Virus record (IMG/VR): IMGVR_UViG_3300018405_000021
Span: 1-60,165 of that record
Direction: 5' to 3' (one strand)
Origin: a virus
Length of the DNA stretch: 60,165 bases
Below the pieces are notes generated by a model that was not told where the DNA came from, did no database searches, and saw only the letters and a program-made list of their open reading frames with translations. The number at the start of each line of letters is the position of its first letter. Positions within the stretch are counted from its first letter, which is position 1. The position numbers and the translations under genes are program-made. Below are positions 2,855 through 54,501 of this stretch, piece after piece.

Positions 2855-3054
2855 TTCGATTTCTCCCTGTCTTTCTCGTGCATGTAGGCACGAACCACGT
2901 TGCGAAGGCCGAAGACAACGCCAGCAGCTTTATCTACCGATGCCTCTTTGTGGACGGACGCAAACCGTTCCATCTTTGCGACGAGGCGATCCATTTCCAG
3001 ATCGAGTTGGTCAGCGTCTTTCTGCTTGAACGTTCTGTATCCGCTATGCGTCAT
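2851..3054 (-). CDS. small hypothetical protein
   Basis: Encodes 67 residues with many charged residues and a predicted helical middle. Its ATG overlaps the stop of the RHH gene upstream. Not recognised. Confidence 0.6.
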   Translation of the reverse strand: MTHSGYRTFKQKDADQLDLEMDRLVAKMERFASVHKEASVDKAAGVVFGLRNVVRAYMHEKDREKSK

Positions 3055-3185
3055 TTGCCGCCCATCTTCTCGTCAATCCACCGGCGTATTAGCTCGGCAA
3101 CGGTGATTTGCAGCCTTGCCGCCTCTTCCCGCAGGTAGTTGCGGCGCTCATCTGTTAGGAAAACTTCCAGTTTGGTCTTTTTCAT
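3051..3185 (-). CDS. ribbon-helix-helix DNA-binding protein
   Basis: A 44-residue protein with a basic strand (KTKLEVFL), then two helices ending in VAELIRRWIDEKM, as in Arc/CopG/MetJ-type dimeric regulators. The start overlaps the stop of a 14-residue upstream peptide, so translation is probably coupled. It likely binds an operator near its own promoter. Related to the RHH protein at 1564-1701. Confidence 0.8.
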   Translation of the reverse strand: MKKTKLEVFLTDERRNYLREEAARLQITVAELIRRWIDEKMGGK

Positions 3186-3226
3186 TCGGCTCTCTTCCGC
3201 CTGTAATTCCGCATGTAAGATTTCAT
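3182..3226 (-). CDS. 14-residue basic leader peptide
   Basis: MKSYMRNYRRKRAE from an ATG at 3226 with a strong AGGAAGG site upstream; its TGA overlaps the ATG of the RHH gene. It may simply carry ribosomes into the RHH gene, or be a short basic peptide in its own right. TTGACA at 3245-3240 on the minus strand could be a -35 element for this small operon, but no good -10 is visible. Confidence 0.5.
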   Translation of the reverse strand: MKSYMRNYRRKRAE

Positions 3227-3249
3227 GGCAACCTTCCTGTGTCAATAAC

Positions 3250-3281
3250 AAAAAAGCCCCGCATGAATTAACATGCAGGGC
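3250..3281 (-). terminator. rho-independent terminator
   Basis: On the minus strand a ten-pair stem (GCCC-GCATG/CATGC-GGGC with one T-G pair) with a six-base loop is followed by TTTTTT. It sits six bases after the stop of the DUF5131 gene and ends the leftward recombination operon. Confidence 0.85.
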
Positions 3282-3286
3282 GTCGG

Positions 3287-4096
3287 TCATGGCATTTCGT
3301 CCCATGTTCTGCCGTCAAGTAATCGGCCGGCGGCTTTCTTCCCCACTCTCATGGATGGCGGCGGGCACTCACCCTTTGTGGATGTATACAGCAGCGCGTC
3401 GGCACTCCACTCCCCCCATTGTTTAAAATGGAACGCTTTTTTGCCCGCCACGCATTGGTCACGCAACTCTCTCGCCCAGTCTGGATGCATGGGCCGCGCT
3501 CCCTTGCCACTTTCCCCGCCGCATATGATGAGTTCCGGCATGATGTCGCTCGGTATCTCACCAAGGGGGGCGAGCATAGGCTCGACAGACCAGAACCTGA
3601 CTTTCGCGTCTATCGCCATAAGCTTGTGGCCGTCGCGAAGCATTTCATCACGATTGACAACCGTAGCGCCGATCCAGACATTCCGTGGAATTCCCAGCGG
3701 GAACATAAGGTCTAGGTAGCGCTTTGCGTTGCCGATGCGTTTTGTCAACAGCATCCAGTCAAGGCATGGGGTGGCGGTTATCAGCCTAGCCAGTTCATGC
3801 CGCCAATCGTCAATGATCGACGGGTGATTGTCGAACACATCGGCCAGCGATGCACAAAACACACGATGGCGCTCCCCGGCATAACTGGCGGCGCGGTTCC
3901 AAGCCCGTGGCTTATTCCAGTTCTGCACGCCGGTACGGGTTCTATCCGCTGCATGGCCCCATCGCGTTGCCGTTCCTTGCATACCTCTCGCATCCCACGT
4001 TTCGGCGTAGCAATGGTCGCATCCCGGCCCGACCTTCATGCATCCTATCCACGGGTTAAATGAAAAATCCGTCCACGAGATACTCGTTTCAGCCAC
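3287..4096 (-). CDS. DUF5131 (phage Gp37/Gp68) family protein
   Basis: A 269-residue protein with the family signature near the N-terminus: NPWIGC, then PGCDHCYAE, giving a cysteine cluster like that of radical-SAM-related enzymes, followed by RVFCASLADVFD and WMLLTKR segments and an ICGGESG stretch. The family is common in phages and is thought to be an iron-sulphur/SAM-type enzyme; the substrate is unknown. Starts with GTG at 4096 after GAAGGAG. It ends the recombination operon. Confidence 0.85.
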   Translation of the reverse strand: MAETSISWTDFSFNPWIGCMKVGPGCDHCYAETWDARGMQGTATRWGHAADRTRTGVQNWNKPRAWNRAASYAGERHRVFCASLADVFDNHPSIIDDWRHELARLITATPCLDWMLLTKRIGNAKRYLDLMFPLGIPRNVWIGATVVNRDEMLRDGHKLMAIDAKVRFWSVEPMLAPLGEIPSDIMPELIICGGESGKGARPMHPDWARELRDQCVAGKKAFHFKQWGEWSADALLYTSTKGECPPPSMRVGKKAAGRLLDGRTWDEMP

Positions 4097-52398: not shown

Positions 52399-52462
52399 AT
52401 ACGTCAGGTGGCGTTGGGCGCTCCGCATGGCTGCAATTTTATCGTAACAATAGGAGTTTCCC

Positions 52463-52678
52463 ATGCTTGTTTCGAACTGGCGTGACGTGGTGCGCAAAGC
52501 GTGGTCCGTCCGTCTTCTTTTGATCGCCGGAATTATGTCAGGGCTTGAGGTTTTCCTCCCCCTGATCGATGGCCTGTACGAAATACCGCGTGGCGTTTTC
52601 GCCGCGCTATCTGGCGTCACGGTTGCGGGCGCGTTTGTGGCGCGTATCGTCGCGCAGAAAGGACTTTCCGATGAGTAG
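52463..52678 (+). CDS. holin-like protein (DUF7940-like)
   Basis: A 71-residue protein with two membrane segments (about 18-36 and 43-63), beginning NWRDVVRKAWSVRL, a form I know from DUF7940 holin-like proteins in alphaproteobacterial phages. Immediately upstream of the lysozyme gene, which it overlaps by eight bases. It would open the inner membrane at lysis. Confidence 0.8.
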   Translation: MLVSNWRDVVRKAWSVRLLLIAGIMSGLEVFLPLIDGLYEIPRGVFAALSGVTVAGAFVARIVAQKGLSDE

Positions 52679-53135
52679 GCTGAAAAAGGGCGCGGCGGTC
52701 ACTGGGATTGCCGTAACGCTCATTGGCGGCTTCGAAGGCCTGCGAACGGTGGCTTATCCCGATCCGGCGACAAAAGGCCCGCCCTGGACCGTGTGCTACG
52801 GCGAAACTGATGGCGTCAAGCCGGGGGACCGCTATACCGTCGAGCAGTGCAAGGACATGCTCCAGAACTCGCTCCAGAAGTACGCGAAGGGCGTCGAGCG
52901 TTGCGTTATCGCCCCGTTGCCTGACAAGCGCTACGTGGCGCTCGTGTCGTTTGCCTACAATGTCGGGGTTGGCGCGGCCTGTAAGTCAAGCGTGGTGACG
53001 AACATCAATGCCGGTCGGACGCGTGAAGGCTGTGACGCGCTCCTGAAATGGGATAAGGCCGCTGGTGTCCGGTTCCCAGGTCTAACGAAGAGAAGGGTTA
53101 AGGAGCGTGAGTTTTGCCTCGACGGCTTAAGGTAG
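52671..53135 (+). CDS. endolysin, GH24 lysozyme
   Basis: A 154-residue muramidase of T4 lysozyme type: GGFEGLRTVAYPDPA with catalytic Glu, CYGET with the Thr, and VSFAYNVG. The N-terminal 20 residues (KKGAAVTGIAVTLIGG) are weakly hydrophobic and could be a signal-anchor-release segment. Residues 127-154 are repeated, diverged, at 53726-53807, because an endonuclease gene lies between the two ends. Confidence 0.9.
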   Translation: MSRLKKGAAVTGIAVTLIGGFEGLRTVAYPDPATKGPPWTVCYGETDGVKPGDRYTVEQCKDMLQNSLQKYAKGVERCVIAPLPDKRYVALVSFAYNVGVGAACKSSVVTNINAGRTREGCDALLKWDKAAGVRFPGLTKRRVKEREFCLDGLR

Positions 53136-53679
53136 GAGCATCGGCCCATCTCGCCTCTGGCCACCCGCTTTTCACGCGAAACTTGAGTGTGGCCCAATGA
53201 AGCCCAAGCTTTCTGGCCAAACCACTAAGGTGATAATCATCTCCTTGGTAGGAAACGACAACGTTATTTTTGAGGTGAGACGATTGCTGTAAAGGCGTTG
53301 CCCAAACGCAATTATCTTTTGAATAGCCGCGCTTGCCATCGGTCCTGTCTAGCGTCGTTCCTTCCGGTCTTTCACCCATGTCGGATAAAAAATTTTCGAA
53401 AGAATACCATTCGTCACAGACTGTAACCCCAGCCGCTCCATAGCGAGAATATTTCGGAGCAATCGGGTTGGTGCACCTCTGCAGCATCGTGGCCCACGAA
53501 TTGTATGTCTTACTTTGTCCCGTCTTCGTAGTGTGTCCGTGCTTCTTACTCGTTGTCTTTGCGTTGCAAGACCGAGAGCAAAACCGCCCTCTACCGCGGG
53601 CTATTTGCGGCTCTGTCGCCTTAAAATGATGGCCGCATGTTGGGCAGATTACGTCAATTCGTGGGATTCTAGCCGTCAT
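53098..53679 (-). CDS. HNH homing-endonuclease-like protein inserted in the lysozyme 3' end
   Basis: A 193-residue protein on the opposite strand. A zinc ribbon (CPTCGHHF, CSRSC) leads; then WATMLQRC, YSRYGAAGVTVCDEWYSFENF, TLDRTDGKRGYSKDNCVW, the HNH pattern shared with the 12784-13287 gene, and a helix-turn-helix at the C-terminus (LSGLARKLGLHWATLKFR). The ATG at 53679 follows GGAG. Its stop lies inside the lysozyme gene. Confidence 0.85.
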   Translation of the reverse strand: MTARIPRIDVICPTCGHHFKATEPQIARGRGRFCSRSCNAKTTSKKHGHTTKTGQSKTYNSWATMLQRCTNPIAPKYSRYGAAGVTVCDEWYSFENFLSDMGERPEGTTLDRTDGKRGYSKDNCVWATPLQQSSHLKNNVVVSYQGDDYHLSGLARKLGLHWATLKFRVKSGWPEARWADAPTLSRRGKTHAP

Positions 53680-53711
53680 CAATCGCTCCAATCTTTACAG
53701 GAGTTTATATC

Positions 53712-53807
53712 ATGACATGTGAACGAAATAAAGCCGCTGGCATCGTATTCCCCGGCCTGACGAAGCGCCGCGAGCGCGAGCGCCAGTTCTGCCTTGAGGG
53801 GTTGTGA
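53712..53807 (+). pseudogene. duplicated 3' end of the lysozyme gene
   Basis: A 31-codon frame whose last 26 residues match the end of the lysozyme (KAAG, FPGLTKRR, FCL-GL in both). It has a start codon, so a peptide could be made, but it lacks all catalytic parts. The DNA has diverged strongly from the first copy, so it is not a recent exact duplication. Confidence 0.8.
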
Positions 53808-53809
53808 TC

Positions 53810-54127
53810 ATGGCAGCGATTTCTTCAAAGCTCAGAAGCGTCGAAGGCGGTCACCTCATGTTCTGGTGTCCCGGATGCGACGGAGCGCACATGGTCGGGG
53901 TTGGCGAGGGGAGTGGCCCAAGATGGGGCTACAATGGTAACCCCGATGCGCCAACTTTCACACCTTCCATTCTCGTGACCTATAACGGCCCCGACGCTGG
54001 CATTGATGGCGCACCACCTGCTGTTTGCCATTCATTCGTTACGGATGGGAAAATTCAGTTTCTTGGTGATTGCACTCACCCGCTCGCAGGAAAGACTGTC
54101 GATATCCCAGATTGGGAGCGGGCATAA
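53810..54127 (+). CDS. DUF6527-like protein
   Basis: A 105-residue protein: LMFWCPGCDGAHMV near the N-terminus and a C-terminal HSFVTDGKIQFLGDCTHPLAG, the phage DUF6527 layout. It contains a CxxC plus histidines, so it may bind metal. Function unknown. GAGGGG lies upstream. Confidence 0.75.
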   Translation: MAAISSKLRSVEGGHLMFWCPGCDGAHMVGVGEGSGPRWGYNGNPDAPTFTPSILVTYNGPDAGIDGAPPAVCHSFVTDGKIQFLGDCTHPLAGKTVDIPDWERA

Positions 54128-54501
54128 TGATCGGCCTCTTCGACTACCTCAAAGCAGGCGTCGACGCTGTCCTCGGTGGCATGATCATGTGGCTGTTCGT
54201 CATCACAATCTACGCCCCGATGATCCGGCACGAGGCAACCGCCAAGGCTGTGGCGCAGTGTGAAGCCGACAAGTCCAACATGGTCAGCCGTGCCGTTGCC
54301 GACGCTCTAGCCGCTACGCTGGCTCAGGAACGACGTTACCGCGTTGCGGCCGACGTTGCCGCATCCGAAGCCGATAAGCGCGCCAGCGAGGCGCTACGGG
54401 CGAAAGAAGAGGCCGACGCGCAGATTGAAGCGCTCAAGGCCGAAGCGAAAGACCAGCCGACATGGACGGAACAGGAAATCGAATGGCTACGCGCGCATTG
54501 A
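54127..54501 (+). CDS. i-spanin (Rz-like)
   Basis: A 124-residue protein with an N-terminal membrane segment (MIMWLFVITIYAPMI, about 19-33) and a long charged coiled coil, the form of Rz. It works with the lipoprotein encoded at 54483 to disrupt the outer membrane. Confidence 0.8.
   Translation: MIGLFDYLKAGVDAVLGGMIMWLFVITIYAPMIRHEATAKAVAQCEADKSNMVSRAVADALAATLAQERRYRVAADVAASEADKRASEALRAKEEADAQIEALKAEAKDQPTWTEQEIEWLRAH

Follow-up and report, generated by a model that had tools for sequence, protein, structure and literature searches.

How does a nuclease gene come to lie within the 3′ end of a phage lysozyme gene, with one version of that end on either side of it, and which of the two ends belonged to the lysozyme beforehand? 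The question is raised by a viral DNA of 60,165 nucleotides from an IMG/VR virus record (hereafter the window, meaning the whole stretch analysed), in which the locus is made up of the following features.

52463–52678, plus strand: DUF7940 gene of the lysis cassette, 5′ of the lysozyme gene and overlapping its start; PHROG 1356 'holin'
52671–53135, plus strand: lysozyme reading frame, 154 residues, a putative chimera of body and carried tail; Pfam Phage_lysozyme, E 8.9e-40
53049–53135, plus strand: first-copy tail, from W127 to the stop codon (WDKAAGVRFPGLTKRRVKEREFCLDGLR, then stop), the presumed carried replacement 3′ end, a role assigned from L266–L269
53098–53679, minus strand: HNH endonuclease gene, 193 residues, its 3′ end overlapping the lysozyme tail by 38 nt; PHROG 3377
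53680–53726, no strand: spacer of 47 nt, with AGGAG at 53699–53703 and an ATG at 53712–53714 in frame with the orphan tail
53727–53807, plus strand: orphan second tail (NKAAGIVFPGLTKRRERERQFCLEGL, then stop), the putative resident remnant, starting one codon after the Trp of LKW/NKAAG (the slash marks the breakpoint)
53712–53807, plus strand: mini-reading frame of 31 residues (spacer ATG plus orphan tail); a possible, speculative translational restart
53810–54127, plus strand: DUF6527 gene, starting 2 nt past the stop codon of the orphan tail

Two lysozyme ends flank an antisense HNH gene

The lysozyme gene and the antisense HNH gene converge tail-to-tail, and the 38-base antisense overlap claimed in the initial annotation is confirmed at 53098–53135. 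A diverged repeat of the lysozyme end had also been placed at 53726–53807. The repeat is real, with 19 of 26 residues identical to lysozyme residues 128–153 and a stop codon at 53805–53807, but in frame it begins at 53727. A DNA-level repeat search of the window did not report this pair, because the copies have diverged and their similarity is clear at the protein level only. When the last 30 residues of each lysozyme were compared with its own downstream 3.5 kb, for 171 lysozyme placements, the window and the duplicate records L164, L165 and L245 gave E values of about 4e-12 and L246 gave 1e-7; all others were at 2.8e-4 or weaker. The IMG/VR record L165 is 100% identical to the window over 8,315 nt, and the two are probably the same virus.

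The HNH protein matches PHROG 3377 ('HNH endonuclease', E 5.7e-42), PHROG 374 (E 1.5e-37) and PHROG 2081 (E 3.8e-33), while a Pfam search gave no match at 1e-3. It consists of an N-terminal CxxC...CxxxC segment, an HNH core and a predicted C-terminal helix pair. In the predicted fold (pLDDT 74, pTM 0.48), strands at residues 109–112 and 124–127 are followed by a helix at 129–138. A PDB search with this fold returned nothing significant, the best relevant match being PacI (3ldy, E 0.45).

The arrangement recurs in other viruses

An antisense HNH gene that overlaps the lysozyme 3′ end was found in nine distinct viruses, namely the window, L246, L261, L262, L263–265 (counted as one virus), L266, L267, L268 and L269. 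In the first scan, the HNH protein of L246 was the best relative outside the window's own virus, at 52% identity. Its lysozyme is 41% identical to that of the window, and the order is lysozyme, overlapping antisense HNH gene, second tail and next gene. L261–L269 were found with a profile of three HNH proteins. The orphan tail is kept in eight of the nine viruses, i.e., the window, L246, L261, L262 and L266–L269, and is partly decayed in L261. L263–265 have the HNH gene and the overlapping tail; an orphan tail was looked for there and not found.

In the eight, the breakpoint has much the same position in the lysozyme, immediately past the Trp of LKW/NKAAG. The orphan tails open at or near the codon that follows the Trp or Tyr of this conserved site: AAT AAA GCC GCT GG in the window, GAC AAA GCC GCT GG in L268, GTC AAA GCT GCC GG in L266, AAT AAA GCT GGT GG in L261 and GTG GCA GGT GGG in L262. 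Only in L246 does the similarity begin a few codons further on. In every case the HNH reading frame and the carried tail overlap, by 4–65 nt; the values for L263 and the first-copy lengths in L266–L269, in which a wrong start or a wrong Trp had been used, were set aside from the tail measurements. Base composition shows a strong contrast in L246, with a GC fraction of 0.58 in the body, 0.42 in the carried tail, 0.46 in the HNH gene and 0.61 in the orphan tail. The order is the same in the window and the contrast weaker (0.61, 0.55, 0.51 and 0.63, respectively).

The spacer also has recurring features. In the window and in L266–L269 it contains an AGGA(G) and an ATG that shares the reading frame of the orphan tail, and in the same viruses the stop codon of the orphan tail adjoins the start of the next gene. 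A short translated orphan tail could, speculatively, keep translational coupling to that gene. L246, L261 and L262 have no clear counterpart of the spacer AGGA(G) and ATG.

The flanks of 93 HNH loci were then compared for duplications, with same-strand pairs only and a single shuffle of partners as control. Some same-strand match was obtained at 83 of the 93 loci, and 25 rows among the matches listed reached at least 25.8 bits. Shuffled partners gave at most 25.4 bits, and the five lysozyme cases scored 45.4 (window), 39.7, 35.0, 33.1 and 28.9 bits. We take eight of the 25 listed rows as true gene-end duplications: L245, L246, L262, L266, L268, L335, L312 and L255. L334, L283 and L278 were rejected as low-complexity matches, and L305 as a repeat of the nuclease's own domain. 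Over-extended HNH frames caused this test to miss L261, L267 and L269, which came to light on reading the sequence.

In L335 (2622–4262), L312 (2934–3881, reverse view) and L255 (2761–3856), an N-terminal fragment of 26–38 residues is followed by an HNH gene and then by a full gene with its own 5′ end. The gene at this mirror-image site in L312 encodes, by eye, a holin-like protein. The three layouts suggest swaps of 5′ ends by the same trick.

Other nuclease genes were seen at or near such sites. An antisense gene for a nuclease that looks GIY-YIG-like by eye occupies the same lysozyme 3′ boundary in L353 (2981–3670) and L399 (2969–3658), and a same-strand gene for a protein that looks HNH-like by eye occupies it in L352 (2984–3559), in each case with no tail replacement. 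L354 has the same following sequence as L353 and L399. In the lysis cassette of L247, a related antisense HNH gene (2998–3456) has a holin-like gene on one side and a GH19-like endolysin gene on the other (both by eye), with no duplicated end seen. L366–L369 and L372 have an HNH homologue elsewhere in the locus, and their lysozymes are uninterrupted. HNH relatives in phiAH14a, D14O and PT11-V22 were considered as further cases of the layout and rejected, as they are located elsewhere.

The carried end is foreign in the L266–L269 family

The direction of the exchange is best seen in the family of L266–L269, in which the element is present or absent at one conserved site in close relatives (L269/L415, L268/L339 and L266/L409). 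The lysozyme bodies of L269, which is invaded, and L415, which is not, are 98.6% identical over 357 nt, and the last 166 nt before the junction are identical. Downstream of the junction, 540 of 540 nt are the same. Between these flanks, L415 has 25 nt where L269 has 656 nt, made up of a new tail, the HNH gene and the spacer (lengths counted by hand). The second empty-site pair, L268/L339, gives the same picture, with 96.9% identity in the body and 91.4% downstream, and the third, L266/L409, agrees at lower identity.

The inserts, moreover, are far more alike than the sequences around them. In an alignment of L266, L267 and L269 divided into blocks of 60 columns, 39–53 columns per block are identical in the lysozyme body and 20–40 from the next gene on, as against 54–60 in the stretch spanning the carried tail and the HNH gene as far as AAAGCTGCCGG. 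That is, inserts that are 90–100% identical per block reside in lysozyme bodies that are 65–88% identical, and the same element, with its converted flank, is found in diverged backgrounds. The carried tail, the HNH gene and the spacer move as one block.

A scan with the four lysozymes of this family listed 80 loci, of which L338 and L341 are invaded contigs again, leaving 78 uninvaded ones. All 78 of these listed lysozymes end in an orphan-type tail and none in the carried tail KRRREAEALLMK, and 76 of them have WN at the site. The carried tail and the HNH gene were sought in the 78 listed loci and not found, apart from 52 nt of L348 and L351 that match L268. We conclude that in the L266–L269 family the carried tail is foreign, and that the resident end was left behind as the orphan.

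The initial annotation had proposed, for the window, an element that arrives with a donor's 3′ end and displaces the resident one. The L269/L415 junctions and the near-identical inserts in diverged lysozymes support that proposal. The comparison with the ends of relatives without the HNH gene, which it had recommended, came out in its favor in a sister family, not among the closest relatives of the window. Its likening of the event to co-conversion of a flank during homing undersells the arrangement, since the carried tail, which shares bases with the nuclease gene, is itself part of the mobile unit.

Direction of the exchange in the window

For the window itself, the architecture that it has in common with the other viruses is our main ground for inferring the direction. 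Identity to its nearest relatives is only about 75%. Searches of viral contigs (80 listed), genome contigs (80 listed) and the 394 genomes of the G001 family returned no relative above about 76%, too distant to place the left boundary of the tract imported into the window. In those 394 genomes, a search for the HNH protein yielded eight weak matches, at 34–52% identity. Among 80 listed DUF6527 loci, L165 is the window's own virus, and the others have either no upstream lysozyme match or only a distant one (27–40%); no empty site for the window was found among them.

By lysozyme body, the window is closest to L084, L007, L004 and L086, with 94, 93, 92 and 90 of 127 residues identical, respectively. 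Two of the closest three, L084 and L004, are without the HNH gene and have tails closer to the first copy than to the second (21 of 26 residues vs 19 for L084, and 22 of 26 vs 19 for L004); for L007 the numbers are 17 vs 21. The tails of L084 and L004 are what favors the reverse direction, in which the window lysozyme would be resident up to and including its first tail, and the HNH gene would have brought 53727–53807 as a foreign scrap from a previous host. The initial annotation had named a match of the first copy to the single end of relatives as evidence against its account, and taken literally L084 and L004 provide one; most distinct tails, however, are closer to the second copy. Specifically, 27 distinct uninterrupted tails are closer to the second copy and 7 to the first, with 9 ties; the 7 include L101 and L023, which like L022 were misaligned in this comparison owing to C-terminal extensions. 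Furthermore, L004 and L084 share WD only near the cut site, and L004 goes on like L005; both tails could be scars of element loss, like those of L348 and L351 described below. The reverse direction is also at odds with the position of the second tail, which sits at the natural tail's place, 2 nt before the next gene, and with the clear opposite direction in the L266–L269 family. We thus regard it as improbable. The base composition of the window points, weakly, the same way as arrival of the HNH gene with a replacement end.

Recoding of the site and probable loss of the element

The carried tails read WD, WSG, YT, YC or WT at the site, and WN in L263 only. Counted over distinct lineages, Asn at the site is found in 1 of 6 carried tails and 50 of 84 uninterrupted ones, a difference that is not significant (p 0.08); 37 distinct strings, in which the pattern had matched an AYNVG motif, were dropped from this count, and 25 of the 251 loci did not parse. 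Recoding of the site is strong, and statistically clear, only within the L268 family.

In L348 and L351 the HNH gene is absent, and the lysozyme has the codons GCTACTGAATGCCTCAAGTGGACAAAGGCTAATGGCCGAGTT (GCT ACT GAA to CGA GTT) in common with the carried tail of L268, followed by the resident tail. This pattern is exactly what recombination between a carried and an orphan tail would leave, with the nuclease gone and the recoded site kept. The hybrid tails of these two contigs, which are possibly one virus, are probable scars of element loss.

A replacement end that travels with the nuclease gene

A second alternative is that simple recombination between the lysozymes of two phages duplicated the tail, and that the HNH gene entered the spacer later, as a passenger. 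Phage genomes are mosaic, with nuclease genes at exchange boundaries (as described in the available part of PMC10448857), and L352, L353 and L399 have other nucleases at this very boundary without a tail swap. A later passenger, however, accounts poorly for a carried tail that overlaps the HNH frame in all cases, that has passed together with this frame, as a single block, between diverged phages, and that ends none of the 78 uninvaded relatives among the matches listed. This makes an origin by simple recombination quite unlikely. Interruption of the lysozyme by an intein or by an intron of group I or II, with the second tail as 3′ exon, is less likely still: exon-like fragments do flank the HNH gene on both sides, and HNH genes often reside inside introns, but here a full homologous tail closes the lysozyme frame before the HNH gene, which is antisense, and an Rfam intron search of 52400–54400 gave no match even at E 1.

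We therefore favor, with considerable confidence, homing of the HNH gene into the lysozyme gene together with a replacement 3′ end. In other phages, the HNH endonuclease would cut the lysozyme gene at the conserved LKW/NKAAG codons, as the breakpoints suggest. The break would be repaired from the carrier phage, with the lysozyme body as left homology and the carrier's orphan tail as right homology. The unit copied would comprise the recoded lysozyme 3′ end, the overlapping antisense HNH gene and the short spacer, the overlap of 4–65 nt tying the replacement end to the nuclease. The interrupted lysozyme would in this way regain a complete 3′ end without splicing, and the chimeric enzyme, whose reading frame is intact, is probably functional. 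The new allele probably resists the nuclease, given that its carried tail is different at the cut site. The resident end would stay as an orphan fragment before the next gene, as seen in L266–L269 and presumed in the window. Recombination between the carried and orphan tails may later remove the element and leave a hybrid tail with the recoded site, as L348 and L351 indicate.

More tentatively, and with rather more doubt than conviction, we suggest that phages may have here a third, splicing-free way of housing homing endonucleases in essential genes. An antisense overlap would fuse the nuclease gene to an end of its target gene that is recoded and so resists cleavage, and the two would home together. 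Such units would replace 3′ ends, as in the lysozyme, or mirror-image 5′ ends, as in L335, L312 and L255, and would sometimes supply a start signal by which the orphaned end couples translation to the next gene.

If so, a spare gene end would be the price at which a selfish nuclease could reside in an essential phage gene with no need of splicing. An old question, namely how free-standing nucleases enter coding sequence and acquire immunity to their own cutting, would then be testable in phages, where the breakpoints predict both the cut site and the resistant allele. Some chimeric phage lysis enzymes would be products of homing and not of ordinary recombination, and orphan gene fragments beside nuclease genes could be taken as a fossil record of past invasions and losses.

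Comparison with known systems

Homing endonucleases encoded by introns and inteins are located inside essential genes at conserved sites, and their own cut site is interrupted. The element described here resembles them in its essential-gene site and, as far as the breakpoints indicate, in the interruption of its cut site; it differs from them in that no splicing element was found and that the carried tail closes the gene. In the intronless homing of SegF and SegG in T4, the donor allele is thought to be protected by divergence of the target sequence. Unlike in that case, the probable break point here is the point of insertion.

The available parts of the phage homing literature describe HNH genes that are free-standing, as well as co-conversion and resistance conferred by sequence replacement (PMC2988022, PMC12724721, PMC10448857, PMC2248197). 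Free-standing HNH and seg/mob endonucleases of T4 and Skunavirus lie beside a functionally critical gene, with co-conversion of the flank and resistance by replaced sequence (available parts of PMC2988022 and PMC12724721). The HNH gene studied here likewise lies beside a critical gene. The T4 and Skunavirus nucleases, however, are located between genes, and the available parts of these two papers do not present the converted flank as the new end of a gene whose old end survives as an orphan fragment. A literature search turned up no example of a carried gene end in a phage; subscription papers were mostly outside this search, and its result is not proof of absence.

The closest parallel is found in fungal mitochondria. 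As described in the available part of PMC3630166, a mobile endonuclease reading frame in atp6, atp9, cox2 and nad3 of Glomus sp. brings an in-phase foreign C-terminal end, and the native end stays downstream of the reading frame and fits close relatives better than the carried end does; the atp6 gene of Allomyces macrogynus is cited there as a mitochondrial gene hybrid. As in the hybrids so described, the carried end is in phase and the native end lies downstream in the window, L246, L261, L262 and L266–L269. The native end also matches that of uninvaded relatives, in 78 of 78 listed loci for the L268 family and equivocally for the window. The fungal hybrids reported in that source involve LAGLIDADG or GIY-YIG reading frames in mitochondria, whereas here an HNH gene is found in phages, at a lysis gene. 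Compared with what the available part of PMC3630166 reports, the phage element is further set apart by the antisense HNH gene that overlaps the carried tail, the empty-site pairs, the near-identical units in diverged hosts and the loss scars. Thus, the carried-end design is already known from fungal mitochondria, and its phage HNH version is a new variant.
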